Positions 21,928 through 29,232 of a stretch of DNA of 64,000 nucleotides are shown piece by piece. The translations under genes and the position numbers were made by a program. The notes below the pieces were generated by a model. That model did no database searches and was not told where the DNA came from. It saw nothing but the letters and a program-made list of their open reading frames with translations. The DNA is from Chloracidobacterium sp. N (lineage in GTDB: Bacteria > Acidobacteriota > Blastocatellia > Chloracidobacteriales > Chloracidobacteriaceae): the NCBI RefSeq assembly GCF_018304765.1, contig NZ_CP072642.1:1827819-1891818 (forward strand), written 5' to 3'. Positions within the stretch are counted from its first letter, which is position 1, and each line of letters starts with the position of its first letter.

Positions 21928-23427
21928 GTGACCTCGATGAACCGTACCCTGCCCGCAGACTTCTCCATCTCACCAAACGTTCACCCACCGGTTGTCCCCA
22001 CGCGGCGGGGGGTCTGGAGTTGGCTTCGCCACTGGCAGCGAACGCTTTTTATCGTGTGGGTTCTGGGGCGCTTCGCCTGGATGCTGTACCGTGACCTCCG
22101 GCGCGCCCGGACCCATTCGGACGGCAATCTGGCGGCACTTCCAACGGAAAAACTCGAAGCCCAGGCAGCCCGGCTGCGCGAACAGCTCATCCGGCTCGGC
22201 CCGACGTTCATCAAGATCGGGCAGGCACTGGCCACCCGCGCCGACCTGCTGCCGGTGCCGTTCATTCAGGAACTGGCCAAGCTCCAGAACCGTGTGCCGC
22301 CGTTTCCGAACAGTGAAGCCTTCGCCATCATCGAGAGCGAGTTGGGCGCGCCCGTCAGCCAGCTTTTCCACACCGTTGACCCGGAACCCGTTGCCGCCGC
22401 CAGTCTGGGACAGGTCTATCGCGGCGTCCGGCACGACGGGCAGGAAGTGGCCATCAAGGTGCAACGCCCCAACCTCGTGGTGCGCATCAGCGAGGATGTG
22501 GACATCCTGCGCCGTATCGCCCGGTGGATGGCCAACTCGAAGCGGCTCTTCAAAGGCAACGACTGGGTTGGGATGATTGATGAGTTCGAGCGCACGATCT
22601 ATGCCGAACTCGATTATCGCAACGAAGGCCGCAATGCCGAACGCTTCCGGCAAAACTTCGCCGACTGGCCGCGGGTCCACGTGCCGACCATCTTCTGGGA
22701 ACAGACGACCTCGCGGGTCCTCACTATGGAGTTCCTGCGCGGCATCTGTGTGACCGATCTGGAAGGGCTGGCTGCCGCCGGCATTGACGCCAAAGAAGCC
22801 AACGAGCTGATGTATCGCACCTACTTCAAGCAACTGCTTGAAGACGGCTTCTTTCACGCCGACCCGCATCCGGGCAACATTCTCATGCTGCGCGACGGAC
22901 GGCTGGCCTTTTTCGACTTCGGCATGGTCGGGCATATCTCCCCGACCCTGCAAAGCCAGATGGTCAGCGCCTTCTTCCACCTCATCGAACGCGATGCGCC
23001 GGGCATCGTCCGGGATTTGGTCGGGCTGGGATTTCTTTCGCCTGAAGCCGACATGGAAGAGTTTGCGCGCGTCGTCGAAGACCTGTTCCGGCGCAAACTC
23101 GATGTCAACCTCTCGGAAGTCCGCTTCAAGGACCTGACTTACGACCTGGGCGACATCATCTACCGCTACCCCTTCTCGACGCCCGCCTCATTCACCTTCA
23201 TCATCCGGGCGCTGATGACTCTGGAAGGCATCAGCATCACCATGAACCCGCGTTTCAACTTCCTTGAAGTTGCCATGCCCTATGCGCGCGATTTCCTGTT
23301 CCGGCGCGAAAGCGCGCAACTGCGGGAGAAGGTCTGGGCCAGCCTGCACGATGCCCGTAATGGGAAGCTCAACTGGACGCGCGTGTGGAATCTGGCCCGG
23401 ACGGCGCTGGCGCTCTATTTCGCCTGA
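21928..23427 (+). CDS. ABC1/UbiB (AarF) family atypical kinase
   Basis: The GTG at 21928, or the ATG at 21937, gives about 499 residues. All ABC1 hallmarks are present: the KxGQ motif 'LGPTFIKIGQALATRADLLP', the Ala-rich loop 'PVAAASLGQVYRG', 'VAIKVQRPN', 'HADPHPGNILM' and the 'FFDFGMVG' metal site. These atypical kinases/ATPases support quinone biosynthesis and lipid homeostasis in bacteria. UbiB often has two C-terminal membrane helices, which are not obvious here. The gene converges on the MNIO partner gene, overlapping it by 13 bases. Confidence 0.92.
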   Translation: MTSMNRTLPADFSISPNVHPPVVPTRRGVWSWLRHWQRTLFIVWVLGRFAWMLYRDLRRARTHSDGNLAALPTEKLEAQAARLREQLIRLGPTFIKIGQALATRADLLPVPFIQELAKLQNRVPPFPNSEAFAIIESELGAPVSQLFHTVDPEPVAAASLGQVYRGVRHDGQEVAIKVQRPNLVVRISEDVDILRRIARWMANSKRLFKGNDWVGMIDEFERTIYAELDYRNEGRNAERFRQNFADWPRVHVPTIFWEQTTSRVLTMEFLRGICVTDLEGLAAAGIDAKEANELMYRTYFKQLLEDGFFHADPHPGNILMLRDGRLAFFDFGMVGHISPTLQSQMVSAFFHLIERDAPGIVRDLVGLGFLSPEADMEEFARVVEDLFRRKLDVNLSEVRFKDLTYDLGDIIYRYPFSTPASFTFIIRALMTLEGISITMNPRFNFLEVAMPYARDFLFRRESAQLREKVWASLHDARNGKLNWTRVWNLARTALALYFA

Positions 23428-23720
23428 AGGGTTGTCCGTCGGCGGTGCCGCCACTCCGCCCAGCGATCACGCCACCACCGCCGCCAGCGGGTTCGCCATC
23501 CCTGCCGGCGTTTGTACTCCGCCTTGTAGTCGAGCTTTTTGGCAAACACCCGCGCAGCCAGCTCCAGCCCCGTCAGATCAATCGCCGCCAGCGCCGCGCA
23601 TTCTTCCGGTGACAGCCCAAAGGTGCTGGCCGTGTTTTCCGGCGCGGCCAAAAACTGCTCCCGGAAAACTTCATCGGCATAGAGCCGCGCCAAAAAGGCT
23701 TCAAAGTGTGGCGACGACAT
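23415..23720 (-). CDS. Small basic protein, MNIO-associated partner (function unknown)
   Basis: The ATG at 23720 lies inside the 3' end of the MNIO gene, a 20-base overlap that implies coupled translation. The protein has 101 residues. A helical N-terminal part ('HFEAFLARLYADEVFREQFL', 'FGLSPEECAALAAIDLTG') is followed by a very basic, Trp/Arg-rich tail ('RRWWRDRWAEWRHRRR'). MNIO enzymes usually need a small partner protein that binds the peptide substrate (MbnC or BufC in characterised systems). By position this is the candidate partner, although I see no clear sequence match to those families. Confidence 0.65.
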   Translation of the reverse strand: MSSPHFEAFLARLYADEVFREQFLAAPENTASTFGLSPEECAALAAIDLTGLELAARVFAKKLDYKAEYKRRQGWRTRWRRWWRDRWAEWRHRRRTTLQAK

Positions 23721-24594
23721 CGGTGCGTACGTTCTGGTTGGCGTTCCGGTCGGCGCGCCCCCGTGCCAGGGCAGCGCGCGCAGCATCGAGTTCATCCAGA
23801 AGCTCGGCAAAGGGTGGATAGTCGCCGTCGCGCTCCAGGATGACAACCAACGGCTGGTAAGCCCGCCGTGCCACTTCTGTCAGCAGGTCAAACACTGGCT
23901 GGGGCGTCGCATGGCGGTGGTCGTCAAGCAGCCGCCGCCCCGGAAAGCGCGTCGCCTGCACCCACTTCCCGCCTGCCAGGTGAATGTAGCCAACCCGTTC
24001 CAGGGGCAGCCGGGCGATGGCTTCACGGGGGTCAAAATCGAAGTTGCAGGCGTTGGCGTACAGGTTGTGCAGGTCGAGCAGTAAACCGTTTTCCGTGGCG
24101 GCCAGGATACCTTCCAGCCAGGTCACTTCATCGAGCGCACTGCCGGGCGGCTCGATAATGGTGGAGATGTTCTCAACCAGTGGGGGGCTGCCGACAATGG
24201 TGCGTGCGGTGGTGAGATTGCGTGCCGTACCCTCGATGGTGGCAGCCGTTCGCGGCGGCGCGGCCAGGTGGCCGACTTCAACGCCGCCGCCACGTACAAA
24301 GGCGAGATGCTCCGACCACAGCCATGGCTCGACCTCGCCGATGAGGCGTGCCAGGTGGTCAAGCCGGACGGGATCAACCGGGGCAGTCGAGGCCAACCCC
24401 AGGGAAACACCGTGCAGCACCAGTGGCGACTGCCGCCCCAGCCAACGTAAAGCCTGCCGATCTTTGCGGGGCGCATCGAAGTAGTCGTCAGCAATGACTT
24501 CTATCACTTCGATGCGCTCAAGGTTCGCCATGATGTCGGCTGCCAAAGGGGCACGCCACCCCAGACCGACGCGATCAAGCCGGGTTTCCATCAT
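23701..24594 (-). CDS. DUF692 multinuclear non-heme iron oxidase (MNIO), MbnB/BufB/TglH family
   Basis: The 297-residue protein is a TIM-barrel DUF692 member with every expected metal ligand in place. These are His61 ('LHGVSLGLAS'), His96 ('LWSEHLAF'), Glu141 ('LVENISTI'), Asp174 with Asn177/Asn181 ('LLLDLHNLYAN'), His205 ('YIHLAGGK'), Asp224-x-His226 ('LLDDHRHATP') and Glu254 ('VILERDGDYP'). Characterised relatives oxidise cysteines or nearby residues in ribosomally made peptides (methanobactin, bufferins, 3-thiaglutamate). The gene lies 76 bases downstream of a membrane protein with a seven-Cys tail, the plausible substrate, and overlaps a small partner gene. Family call firm; substrate inferred. 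Confidence 0.93.
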   Translation of the reverse strand: MMETRLDRVGLGWRAPLAADIMANLERIEVIEVIADDYFDAPRKDRQALRWLGRQSPLVLHGVSLGLASTAPVDPVRLDHLARLIGEVEPWLWSEHLAFVRGGGVEVGHLAAPPRTAATIEGTARNLTTARTIVGSPPLVENISTIIEPPGSALDEVTWLEGILAATENGLLLDLHNLYANACNFDFDPREAIARLPLERVGYIHLAGGKWVQATRFPGRRLLDDHRHATPQPVFDLLTEVARRAYQPLVVILERDGDYPPFAELLDELDAARAALARGRADRNANQNVRTDVVATL

Positions 24595-24670: not shown

Positions 24671-25726
24671 CTAGCTACAACCGCCACAGCCACCGCCGCA
24701 ACTGCTACAACTGCCGCCGTCGCTGCTGCACGAACTGCTGCAGGAACTTCCACAGGATGAGCTGTCGGTCGGAGCTTTGGGGAAGGCTTCCCGGACTTCA
24801 GGAAAAACCTCCGCCGGCAGAGCCGCGACACCATAGACACCGGCCAGCAGGGCAATCTGCGCCATCGAGGCGTTGGCTTTGAGAGCGGCAGCTTGGGCGC
24901 GCATCCCTTCAAACAGCGATTCCAGTGACTTCACAACATAGTCGCCAAAGCGCATCCGGTAGTCTCCGCTAAAACTCCAGGCCCAGATCGCCGCAACAAT
25001 CATGATCAGCACGGTAAAGCCGATGTTCCTGTACCCATGCCACACAGCGACACCGATCTTGGCTAAACCGACAACCAGAATAAAGATCAGGGCAAACAGC
25101 GCCCGACTGGTACGGGCCTGTTTCTGGGCTTCAGAGGGCAACAAGCCGGCTTTCTCCAACTCTTCCTTGTAAAGGTCATCCACCTGCTGCTTGAGACCGC
25201 CCTGCTCGAAGATTTCCTCCGGCTTCCGTGGAGTTGTGAAAAAGCGAAGTACGGCTCTTTCCAGAGGAAATGGCAGCGACTTCGCATCACAGTCCGGCGC
25301 GGTCACGAGCTGCTTTTCCTTTTTTTCCGACGACTCGTTCTGCAAAAGCATCAGGTGACGGGCTTCGATGAGGACGGCCGTGGCCACCCGCAGGGCTTCA
25401 TTGGCTCCCCCGCGCAGGTAGGCCAGTCGGTAGGGGTCAGAAGTATCGAACTTCGTCAGTTCCCTGACCGGCTCGGCGACGATTCGCCGCACATACAGCA
25501 TCGTGATCACGCCCGCACAAGCCAGCAGGTAAGCCAGCAGAAATCCTGTCTTGGGCAGGCAGATGATGACGACGGTGAAACACAGGAGCAGGGTAAACCA
25601 GACAATGACGAACGACCGGACCACCCAGGCGTCGTTGTCTGGAAGAGTTGTCGCTCCATTTGAGGCGGGGGTTACAGATTTCCACGAGTCGGAAGGCTTG
25701 GGGGTACTGACCGGGTAGGAACTCAT
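24671..25726 (-). CDS. Membrane protein with C-terminal Cys/Ser/Gly tail (TIGR04222-like), candidate MNIO substrate
   Basis: The ATG at 25726 follows AGGAGGT. The 351-residue protein has hydrophobic segments at about 35-57, 61-79, 208-230 and 235-252, with a soluble domain between (80-205). It ends in a low-complexity tail (321-351) with Cys at 325, 329, 333, 340, 343, 347 and 350 among Ser and Gly. As I recall, the TIGR04222 family has this architecture, with Gly/Cys-rich tails next to DUF692 genes. A tail of this type directly upstream of an MNIO gene suggests it is modified or metal-binding while attached to the membrane. A plain metal-binding tail without modification is the alternative. 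Confidence 0.78.
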   Translation of the reverse strand: MSSYPVSTPKPSDSWKSVTPASNGATTLPDNDAWVVRSFVIVWFTLLLCFTVVIICLPKTGFLLAYLLACAGVITMLYVRRIVAEPVRELTKFDTSDPYRLAYLRGGANEALRVATAVLIEARHLMLLQNESSEKKEKQLVTAPDCDAKSLPFPLERAVLRFFTTPRKPEEIFEQGGLKQQVDDLYKEELEKAGLLPSEAQKQARTSRALFALIFILVVGLAKIGVAVWHGYRNIGFTVLIMIVAAIWAWSFSGDYRMRFGDYVVKSLESLFEGMRAQAAALKANASMAQIALLAGVYGVAALPAEVFPEVREAFPKAPTDSSSCGSSCSSSCSSDGGSCSSCGGGCGGCS

Positions 25727-26026: not shown

Positions 26027-28531
26027 ATGACTTTCCCATCCAGCCTGAAACGCGATACCTTACCGGTTTGCCAGGATATGTTCGCTCAAATCACTATGGT
26101 CTCCAAAATCCCAAGCGCCAACGTGGCGTTGCCGATGACACACGAGTTATCCGATGAACTCCCGTTGACCAACGAGGAGACAGGCGATATTCCCGACACA
26201 CTGCCGTTGTTGCCGCTGCGCGACATCGTCGTTTTTCCATTTCTCATTGTTCCCCTTTTTGTACAGCGCGAGAAATCGCAACGCGCCATCGAAAACGCCC
26301 TCCCCAACCGGCGTCTGATTGTGCTCGCCACCCAGCGCGATCCAGAGCATGAGGACCCAACCGGCGATGACCTGCACCGGGTTGGTACGATTGCGGCCGT
26401 GATGCGCCTGCTCAAAACCGGCGATGGCCGGGTGCGGATTCTCGTTCAGGGATTGGCGCGCGCAACGCTTCTGCGTGTGACCGACGAAGCCGGCTACATG
26501 CAGGCGCAGGTGCAAACCATTCCTGAAGCCTCGGTGGAGATGACCCTGGAAGTTGAAGCCCTGGTCCGCGCGGTCAAGGGATTGCTCGAACGGATTGTCA
26601 CCCTGGGCAAGCAGATTTCTGCCGAAGTGCTCGCCATTGCGGCATCCCTGGATGATCCGGGCCGCCTGGCTGATCTCTGCGCCTCCAACCTCGACGCCAA
26701 GCTCAGCGACGCCCAGGCGATTCTCGAAGAAGCCGACCCCATTGCCCGTCTGCGGCGCGTTCACGACCTCATGGCCCGCGAAGTGGGCATTCTCACGGTA
26801 CAGCAGGAAATCAGCAGCCAGGCCAAGGGTGAGATTGACCGCTCCCAGCGCGAGTTCTACCTGCGCCAGCAGCTCAAGGCCATTCAGCAGGAGTTGGGTG
26901 AAGTTTCCGATGCTGGCGACGAAGTGGCGGCCTACCAGGAGAAAATTGCCGAAGCCCGCCTTCCCGAACCGGCGCGGGAAGAAGCGACGCGCCAACTCAA
27001 ACGCCTTGAACGGCTCCACCCGGACGCCGCCGAGGCGGGGCTGCTGCGGACGTATCTGGATACCCTGCTGGCGCTTCCCTGGAACACCTTTTCGGAAGAC
27101 CACATTGACCTTCAGCACGTCAAAGCCGTCCTCGATGCCGACCATTACGGCCTCGAAAAGGTCAAGGAGCGCATTCTCGAAGCCCTGGCGGTACGGCGGC
27201 TCAAACCGGATACCAAAGGGCTGTTATTGTGTCTGGTCGGGCCGCCCGGCGTGGGCAAGACCTCTCTCGGCCGGTCGGTGGCCAAAGCCATCGGGCGCAA
27301 GTTCGTCCACATTTCACTGGGTGGCGTCCACGACGAAGCTGAAATCCGTGGGCACCGCCGAACCTACGTGGGTGCCATGCCCGGACGCATCATCCTTGGG
27401 CTTCAGCAGGCCGGGACGAAAAACCCGCTGATGCTCCTCGATGAAGTGGACAAACTGGGCAACGACTTCCGGGGCGATCCGGCCTCGGCGCTGCTGGAAG
27501 TGCTTGACCCGGAACAAAACCACGCCTTCCGTGACAACTACTTGGGTGTGCCGTTTGACCTTTCAAAAGTCATGTTCCTGCTGACGGCCAACGTCACCGA
27601 CACGATTCAACCGGCCCTGCGCGACCGGCTCGAAATTGTGCGGTTGCCGGGCTACACCCAGGAAGAAAAACTCGTCATTGCCCGGCGGCATCTCGTGCCC
27701 AAGCAGCTTGCCGAGAGCGGCCTGACCGGCAAGCATCTGGCCATCACGGAAAGCGCCCTGCGGATGACCATTGCCCGCTACACCCGTGAGGCCGGCGTCC
27801 GCCAGCTTGAACGTGAAATTGGCAAGCTGTGCCGCAAGGTGGCGCGGCGCGTCGCCGAAGGCGACAGCGGGAAAGTCACCATCACGGCCGCCAATCTGGC
27901 TGATTACCTTGGCGTTCCGAAGTTCAAAGCCGACGCCATTTTGTCCCAGGATCGCATCGGCGTGGCCGCCGGATTGGCCTGGACGAGTGTCGGCGGCGAC
28001 GTGATGCACGTCGAAGCCCTCCTGCTGCGCGGCAAGGGCGGGCTGCTTCTGACGGGCAAGCTGGGTGAAGTCATGAAGGAATCCGCCCATGCGGCACTGT
28101 CGTATGCCAAGTCCCGCGCCCGCGAACTGGGTATCGAGCCTGATGTTTTCACGCAGCATGACCTCCACATTCACGTACCGGAAGGCGCAATTCCGAAGGA
28201 CGGGCCTTCAGCCGGGATCACCATGGCCACCGCCATGGTGTCGGCGCTGTCCCGCCGTCCTGTCAGGCGCACGGTGGCGATGACAGGCGAAATCACCCTG
28301 CGCGGCGATGTCCTGCCTGTCGGCGGTATCCGCGAAAAAATCCTGGCCGCGCGGCGGGCCGGCATCAAAACCGTCATCCTTCCGGCGCAGAACCAGCCGG
28401 ATGTCAGGGACATCCCGGCGGAACTCGTCAAAGGTCTCAAATTCATCTACGTGCAGGAGGTCAGCGAAGTGTTTGCCGCAGCGCTCGGCAAGGCGGCAAA
28501 GACTTTGCCGGCCAAGGGAGTCAACAAATGA
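26027..28531 (+). CDS. lon: ATP-dependent protease Lon
   Basis: The 834-residue protein has the Lon order. The N-terminal substrate domain ('[20 protein letters not shown]' near residue 60) is followed by a coiled helical region with '[15 protein letters not shown]'. The AAA+ module has Walker A '[11 protein letters not shown]' and Walker B '[11 protein letters not shown]'. The protease domain carries the Ser-Lys dyad, Ser in '[14 protein letters not shown]' and Lys in '[15 protein letters not shown]'. Lon degrades misfolded and regulatory proteins. The first ~35 residues are not conserved, and internal ATGs at 26078 and 26099 are plausible starts. The downstream redoxin gene overlaps it by four bases. 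Confidence 0.95.
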
Positions 28532-29232
28532 AACGCAACCACTGGACGCACCTGCTCTGTCTGCTGGCACTGGCGTGGTTCAGCCTGGCGGACGCACCCG
28601 CCGTGGCAGTCCCCCGGCACATGGACATGAACACGACGGAAGACGGGCATGAGTACGCCCCGCTGCAAACCGTCAAGCTGCCCTACAAAGACTGGACCTA
28701 TCCCGGACTCGACGGCCAACCCATCAACCTGCGGACGTGGATGCAGGGCAAGAAACTCGTGCTGGTTGTGTACTTCGCGCCCTGGTGTGGCAACTGGCGC
28801 TATGAGGCCGAAGTTCTGTCCCGCCTGCACGCCAAATATCAACCGCATGGGCTGGGCATCATTGCTGTCAACGAATACGGCACTACCGACGAGACCAGGG
28901 CCTTTTTTGGTGAAGCCGGTGCGCCTTACCCGGTCGTGGTTGAATCCGAAGACCGCCGCCGGATTGGCGAAACTTCCCATGCGCTGTACCGGCGGATGAC
29001 GGGCGACTTCCGCACTTACGGTTCCCCCTACAACATCTTCCTTGAGCCGGCAGCAGTCATCGAAACGGGTGAGGTGCTGGCGGAGCAGGTCACCGTCGCC
29101 AATGGTGAACTCATCGAAGCCGAGGCCGAGGCGTTCATCCGTAAAAAGCTGGGACTGCCGGCGGCCTCCGGGCCAACAGCGAACCCTTCCCAACCGGACA
29201 AGCTAGGCTCACCCCTGTTACGCATGCGCTGA
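28528..29232 (+). CDS. Secreted redoxin/TlpA-like protein with a single active-site cysteine
   Basis: The ATG overlaps the lon stop (ATGA). The 234-residue protein has a signal peptide (about 1-28) and a thioredoxin-fold domain: 'GLDGQPINLRTWMQGKKLVL', 'YFAPWCGNWRYEAEVLSRL', 'GIIAVNEYGTTDETRAFF'. The active-site motif is WCGNW, so the second cysteine of CxxC is missing. That argues against a classical disulfide reductase and for a peroxiredoxin-like or one-cysteine role in the periplasm. Translational coupling to lon is unusual and hints at a stress-related unit with the thioesterase that follows. Confidence 0.83.
   Translation: MKRNHWTHLLCLLALAWFSLADAPAVAVPRHMDMNTTEDGHEYAPLQTVKLPYKDWTYPGLDGQPINLRTWMQGKKLVLVVYFAPWCGNWRYEAEVLSRLHAKYQPHGLGIIAVNEYGTTDETRAFFGEAGAPYPVVVESEDRRRIGETSHALYRRMTGDFRTYGSPYNIFLEPAAVIETGEVLAEQVTVANGELIEAEAEAFIRKKLGLPAASGPTANPSQPDKLGSPLLRMR

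Follow-up and report, generated by a model that had tools for sequence, protein, structure and literature searches.

A cysteine tail on a TIGR04222 membrane protein of Chloracidobacterium, probably an enzyme-modified, putative metal-binding tag

The cysteine tail at the C-terminus of a TIGR04222 membrane protein of Chloracidobacterium sp. N is probably a membrane-anchored, enzyme-modified, putative metal-binding tag. Its gene stands in one operon with the genes for an MNIO (DUF692) enzyme and for a small NHLP/LigA-like protein, within the window that we analysed, a stretch of 64 000 nucleotides whose relevant features are collected in Table 1. The reading that we prefer, in which the tail is a substrate of this MNIO and undergoes heterocycle chemistry at its cysteines, has in our estimate a probability of about 0.7. 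Taken by parts, it is very likely that the tail is acted on by the neighbouring MNIO and rather probable that the product formed on its cysteines is a thiooxazole, while the binding of copper or another soft metal is a tentative suggestion.

Table 1. Features of the locus, in coordinates of the window
Feature	Position	Strand	Basis
TIGR04222 domain-containing membrane protein, putative MNIO substrate; 351 aa	24671..25726	(-)	NCBIfam TIGR04222, 75.6 bits
TIGR04222 domain, residues 66-304	24815..25531	(-)	Profile match and AlphaFold2 helices/strands
Cys/Ser/Gly tail, 7 Cys, stop codon included; proposed modified region	24671..24754	(-)	Translation and spacing statistics
MNIO / DUF692 enzyme, proposed tail-modifying oxidase	23701..24594	(-)	PF05114, 230.9 bits
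101-aa helical NHLP/LigA-like protein, proposed MNIO partner	23415..23720	(-)	NF038399, 40.4 bits for longer ORF
UbiB/ABC1-type kinase, flanking gene	21928-23427	Opposite to operon	Family search
Long ORF, flanking beyond TIGR04222 gene	26027-28531	Opposite to operon	ORF list

Translation of the minus-strand ORF gives a protein that ends in ...SSSCGSSCSSSCSSDGGSCSSCGGGCGGCS. Its last 27 residues are CGSSCSSSCSSDGGSCSSCGGGCGGCS, with spacers of 3, 3, 6, 2, 3 and 2, so that the seven cysteines which the first-pass annotation had read there, as CX3CX3CX6CX2CX3CX2C among Ser and Gly, are confirmed. The tail proper occupies 24674-24754 plus the stop codon; the 90-bp interval 24671-24760 also takes in the two Ser codons before it. 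Of the 11 Cys in the whole protein, four lie outside the tail. The TIGR04222 match exceeds the cut-off of 43 bits and covers positions 2-229 of the 229 in the NCBIfam profile, which places the protein in the family, and it is the sole such match in the genome (3.7 Mb, two contigs). The protein also has two traits of the proposed MNIO-substrate subset of TIGR04222, a C-proximal Cys-rich Ser/Gly segment and an MNIO gene 3' of its own. The long ORF beyond it looks by eye like a Lon protease, and an AhpC/TSA thioredoxin-like protein is encoded at 28528-29232 on the plus strand (PF00578, 34.1 bits).

The AlphaFold2 model of the TIGR04222 protein (7 sequences, mean pLDDT 74.1) has helices of transmembrane (TM) length at residues 31-56, 59-84, 199-230 and 235-253, a helix-helix-hairpin unit at 98-142 with strands at 125-129 and 138-142, and a tail that is disordered from residue 318. 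The TIGR04222 domain takes in part of a TM helix, a soluble helix-helix-hairpin domain, a TM hairpin and a second soluble part. Foldseek gave no match to the model at E <= 0.001, and a profile search of the PDB (A1) gave five weak matches, the best with an E of 0.0058. A likeness to GOLPH3/Vps74 is not claimed, the VIA-align Z of 7.2-8.3 over model residues about 91-320 falling short of the values that the tool recommends for helical models.

On the side of the membrane that the tail faces, we give the cytoplasm even odds. For the charge analysis our own TM borders were mapped by alignment onto 22 proteins, leaving out G001 as a near-duplicate and G004 for its partial N-terminus. Lys plus Arg came to 0.208 per residue on the side of the loop and the segment after TM4 versus 0.097 on the other side, the former being higher in 20 proteins, all but G005 and G021. 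This contrast comes from the flank before TM2 alone, where the value is 0.05 against 0.18-0.23 in the flanks formed by the loop and the segment after TM4 (the inner side exceeds it in 21 of 22 proteins). The TM3-TM4 turn, at 0.204, is no less rich in Lys and Arg than the proposed inner side, which exceeds it in only 11 of 22. With the loop inside and two TM segments after it, the tail would be cytoplasmic, where an MNIO without a signal peptide would also be. The N-termini of two homologues (G007 and G009) have two CxxC pairs each, and paired CxxC motifs are typical of cytoplasmic zinc ribbons, which likewise speaks for an inner location. A variant of the preferred reading that differs only in membrane side would make the protein a bufferin-like periplasmic metallophore with its tail exposed to the periplasm; we hold this to be possible, at somewhat less than even odds. 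It agrees with the topology given for the family, whose tails are read as periplasmic (PMC12452194), with the basic TM3-TM4 turn, and with a hydrophobic stretch at residues 290-309 of our own protein (mean hydropathy 1.66) that could be a further TM segment, although the helix that AlphaFold2 models there, at 288-298, is only 11 residues long. The charge at one flank and the model thus favour a cytoplasmic tail, and the hydropathy of 290-309 and the TM3-TM4 turn do not.

The operon runs in the order TIGR04222-MNIO-NHLP on one strand, with 76 nt between the first two genes and an overlap of 20 nt between the last two. A promoter scan returned 0 sigma-70-like sites, and terminator-like sites numbered 5 versus 3.0 expected. 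The enzyme scores over the cut-off of PF05114, which places it in the MNIO superfamily, and is the only match to that family in the genome. It falls below every NCBIfam equivalog cut-off listed; the best equivalog is BufB (NF050167), at 190.8 bits with a cut-off of 310, and the product can therefore not be read from the family name. It aligns with the solved structures 3BWW and TglH, and has the motifs LHGVSL (residue 60), SEHLAF (94), VENIS (140), LDLHNLY (173), IHLAGG (204), LLDDHRH (222) and LERDG (253), whose His, Asp, Glu and Asn positions are kept in all six aligned sequences. Some of these residues presumably bind iron. In HvfB the metal-site residues include N175, D242 and H244 (PMC13419390).

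The first-pass annotation had proposed a metal-binding site, a set of modification sites or both, as in copper-binding bufferins. The enzyme half of this comparison stands, in that a gene of the bufferin-maturing MNIO class lies directly downstream; the carrier half falls, the protein being a multi-pass TIGR04222 member in which no bufferin domain (e.g. DUF2282) was found at E up to 1 in Pfam and NCBIfam. Without a family match and with the BufB cut-off missed, bufferin membership is rejected. No DUF2063 match was found at the locus in Pfam or NCBIfam, and no copper gene was recognised beside the operon among the five window proteins searched.

The gene pair recurs. From 28 stretches we dropped L030, which repeats the gene of L053, and L032, in which TIGR04222 had no match, leaving 26 distinct loci, and an MNIO gene adjoins the TIGR04222 gene in 22 of these, a count that includes our own and the near-identical G001. 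The loci without an adjoining MNIO are L031, L056, L062 and L069, the last cut by a contig end. L031, from genome G028, has a Gly/Ala-rich tail without Cys and no MNIO in the genome (1.5-kb flanks viewed), which counts for the proposal that the MNIO acts on the tail. Among 396 Acidobacteriota genomes, TIGR04222 was over its cut-off in 18; 14 of the 18 have an MNIO, adjacent in 14 of 14, versus 106 of 396 overall (Fisher p = 5.5e-6). These family searches scored few candidates per genome (up to 7 for TIGR04222 among the matches listed, 3 for SbtM), so that absences are not absolute. The TIGR04222 search used the domain profile, whose match in our own protein stops before the tail, while the homologue search within the genus used the whole protein including the tail and may favour Cys-tailed homologues. 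The same six of seven genomes of the genus, our own included, have both TIGR04222 and MNIO, and neither was found in the seventh, which is 85% complete. No homologue of the TIGR04222 protein was found in the viral contigs or plasmids searched. Outside our sample the link looks looser, because 490 of 1372 complete genomes with TIGR04222 have no MNIO genes; C-proximal Cys are absent from over a quarter of TIGR04222 proteins (PMC12452194).

Other neighbours were seen in the same survey. In 9 of the 28 stretches (L054, L056, L057, L058, L059, L064, L065, L068 and L069; three of the 28 repeat other loci) a nucleotidyltransferase-like gene is found immediately 5' of TIGR04222, its products being weak kin of aminoglycoside nucleotidyltransferases (2 of 9 scanned), and no match of this kind was found in the window stretch searched. 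TrkA_N/ion-channel genes are near TIGR04222 in 3 of the 28 (L056:2008-3849, L068:2374-4119 and L059:4238-5863), the first two of which were scanned for their domains.

The strongest clue to the product comes from a locus with a different enzyme. The TIGR04222 protein of L056 (genome G115) has a 7-Cys tail that ends in CGGC plus GGG, and its genome has no MNIO match. In the same run of same-strand genes, after the TrkA_N/ion-channel gene, lies a radical-SAM/SPASM gene (L056:1007-2011, minus) that matches SbtM, TIGR04082, with 496.8 bits (cut-off 350; profile 195-516 of 516). SbtM, of the 'thio(seleno)oxazole modification radical SAM maturase' family, turns Cys into thiooxazole (PMC11002830), and FonB, HvfB and related MNIOs form 5-thiooxazoles on peptides linked to copper or Cu binding (PMC12668002); a copper-binding thiooxazole product has been described by authors who are hesitant on copper protection (PMC12538549). 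Tails of one kind are thus found beside two unrelated enzymes, each of which is known for this heterocycle, and the SbtM gene of L056, a single case, points to thiooxazole chemistry on TIGR04222 tails. What our locus has in common with the SbtM/SbtA system (TIGR04082) is this SbtM gene near a homologue of our protein and the thiooxazole formed on Cys in that system; what sets it apart is that our own enzyme is an MNIO.

SbtM is rare by the same search, over its cut-off in 2 of 396 genomes with few candidates per genome scored; weaker TIGR04082 matches in 352 of 396 are expected, because the radical-SAM superfamily is large. Our own genome has no TIGR04082 match over the cut-off. Of the 38 genomes of its class that were searched, one has the L056 TIGR04222 protein; the second SbtM genome, G284, is among the other 37 and has no homologue of it, and a pattern search of ORFs of at least 45 aa found no Cys-rich tail within 1.5 kb on each side of its SbtM gene (L070). 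We found no mention of TIGR04222 together with SbtM in the open-licence literature, and PMC12452194 does not mention SbtM. Against the call of a thiooxazole it must be said that MNIO products vary and that our own MNIO stays under the equivalog cut-offs. The 5-thiooxazole-forming MNIOs described in PMC12668002 pair with DUF2063-type (PME1) partners, and MbnB, which is without PME1, yields another product (PMC12668002); our own partner is NHLP-like, which counts against the 5-thiooxazole reading.

The tail might instead be an unmodified thiol-rich tag for metal binding or redox, with the adjoining MNIO acting on something else. A flexible Ser/Gly chain with close-set Cys can bind metals by itself, and the G112 genome, with no MNIO and no SbtM over the cut-off, encodes a 3-Cys tail, but the one other MNIO-less Cys tail with complete surroundings, that of G115, has SbtM in the same run. 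The adjacency of TIGR04222 and MNIO in every one of the 14 sampled genomes that have both also argues against an unmodified tag, as does our own operon, in which no second Cys-rich ORF was apparent by eye, and we consider such a tag unlikely. We maintain the proposal that the MNIO modifies the tail because of the adjacency at 22 of 26 loci and in 14 of 14 genomes, the kept motifs, the fusion of the partner described below and the replacement by SbtM; the G112 tail, the single SbtM case and the 490 of 1372 genomes count against it.

The 101-aa protein is proposed as the MNIO partner, and the best sign of this is L057:354-1574 (minus), where a single open frame joins the small protein to the C-terminus of the MNIO. 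The small protein is present in 20 of the 22 MNIO loci; L052 stops at a contig end, and in L054 the expected place of the NHLP-like gene, 3' of the MNIO, is taken by another ORF (L054:5698-6282, 194 aa, no Pfam/NCBIfam match), which may encode another kind of partner. In the published scheme, helical 'PME-type 2' proteins make up many of the short MNIO partners (PMC12452194), and the model of the 101-aa protein is all helical. A profile comparison of the 101-aa family with TIGR04222 gave no match, and 3DEE is not among the matches listed for the 101-aa protein, which may nonetheless be of the DUF2063-like PME-type 2 kind.

This small protein could also be the true RiPP precursor, with the TIGR04222 protein as its scaffold or transporter, a reading that we regard as improbable. 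Its longer, 143-aa ORF scores just over the cut-off of 40 bits of the precursor family NF038399 (Os1348 NHLP clan), a borderline membership, and homologues score 42.7, 36.2 and 34.8. The model resembles the borosin precursor SonA, which gives the best Foldseek matches (E 0.26, not significant) and to which VIA-align gave a best Z of 8.1 over 46 residues (1.6 A), a value that the tool itself rates as weak; sequence profiles gave weak pointers to nitrile hydratase alpha, LigA and SonA (best E 0.019). The protein has, however, a single Cys, at residue 41, common to one of six aligned homologues and with none in the other five. The C-terminus of the family is variable in length and mostly basic, and this, with the fusion to the modifying enzyme in L057, also separates it from the split borosin SonA.

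Judged from the aligned sequences, what is conserved in the tail itself is the spacing style and the number of Cys and not the formula. Tails were defined by chaining Cys at no more than 15 residues, and 24 homologous tails minus the near-duplicate G001 gave a set of 23 with 126 spacers. L069 (contig ends before the tail), L031 (no Cys tail), L030 (repeated gene) and the sub-cut-off matches L033-L036 were left out, and L032 (genome G188), where a long ORF matches only positions 28-126 of the 229 in the profile, was set aside. For our own tail alone, the probability of having no spacer below 2 is 0.019 with the first and last Cys fixed, which is modest by itself. Over the 126 spacers, X0-X1 was found twice (1.6%, both in G003) versus 33% expected, X2-X3 made up 60% versus 23%, and X2-X5 84% versus 40%, with 0 of 5000 randomisations as low in the first case or as extreme in the other two. 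Five to nine Cys are present in 22 of the 23 tails (the exception is G112 with three), one to three residues follow the last Cys in all 23, and the last spacer is X2 in 16.

The exact 7-Cys formula was found again, among the homologous tails compared, only in G001, the nearest species. In the congeners G004, G005 and G006, C3C3C is followed by a linker of Gly/Asp, 8-12 residues long, and then by C3C with or without one more Cys, while G003 has CCC-X3-C, a 7-residue linker, and C3C3C. Since the formula differs within the genus, the exact formula as a conserved metal site is rejected. The regular, ordered spacing claimed in the first-pass annotation holds across homologues for Cys number and style, and its exact form extends to G001; the orthologue alignment that it had called for, here of the 23 non-duplicate tails, neither keeps the formula nor randomises Cys number and spacing, as the formula varies but 5-9 Cys (in 22 of 23) and, almost always, spacers of at least 2 are kept. 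Between our protein and that of G001, all 8 changes in the 34 codons of the tail are synonymous and none is non-synonymous, and the 317 codons of the body have 41 synonymous and 24 non-synonymous changes, a difference with a Fisher p of 0.047 on changed codons and of 0.15 per codon, the latter not significant. The repeat codons are mixed (Cys TGT/TGC; Ser AGT/AGC/TCC/TCG), and recent slippage of one DNA unit is therefore rejected. Low-complexity drift, a Ser/Gly tail with incidental Cys, would fit a Cys number and spacing that differ in detail even within the genus, and is nonetheless extremely unlikely in view of the near absence of close Cys pairs, the narrow range of Cys number, the mixed codons and a tail without amino-acid change relative to G001.

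In the preferred reading, modification by the MNIO, the TIGR04222 protein would insert into the inner membrane and the NHLP/LigA-like protein would dock with the MNIO or activate it. The iron centre of the MNIO would then oxidise the tail Cys together with the preceding residue, most likely to 5-thiooxazoles, and the row of close-set heterocycles and thiols would serve at the membrane as a buffer or a sensor that binds a soft metal, Cu(I) being the most likely one. A wider proposal, of which we are rather doubtful, is that membrane-anchored TIGR04222 carriers of poly-thiooxazole tails, whose chemistry either MNIO or SbtM can install, are retained in the cell, tail on the cytoplasmic side, and act as fixed metal or redox sensors or buffers, some of them beside TrkA-type channels, and are not released as small peptides.

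TIGR04222 tails have already been proposed as MNIO substrates, in a paper by which the modification and role of these proteins are still to be investigated (PMC12452194). Our locus agrees with that set in its unstructured Ser/Gly/Cys C-terminus, in the position of the gene directly before the MNIO gene and in having no DUF2063 match. It differs in coming from Acidobacteriota, where the published set is mostly from Actinomycetota, in its NHLP/LigA-like small partner, in one homologue with SbtM for MNIO, and in a membrane side that we hold to be less certain than stated there (PMC12452194). With bufferins and captophorins (BufA, FonA and HvfA, with MNIO and DUF2063 partner) it shares a BufB-like MNIO beside a multi-Cys substrate candidate, but it lacks a bufferin family match, a small secreted precursor and a DUF2063 match. 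No relevant literature on Chloracidobacterium with RiPP was among the matches listed. What is known already is thus the TIGR04222 Cys tail as a putative MNIO substrate; what is added is a member in Chloracidobacterium and an SbtM variant among its relatives.

The replacement by SbtM and the fusion of MNIO and partner lead to two predictions, thiooxazole on the tail Cys and an NHLP-like partner that acts in trans. If the preferred reading is true, full-length membrane proteins, and not only peptides, would carry metal-binding heterocycles.
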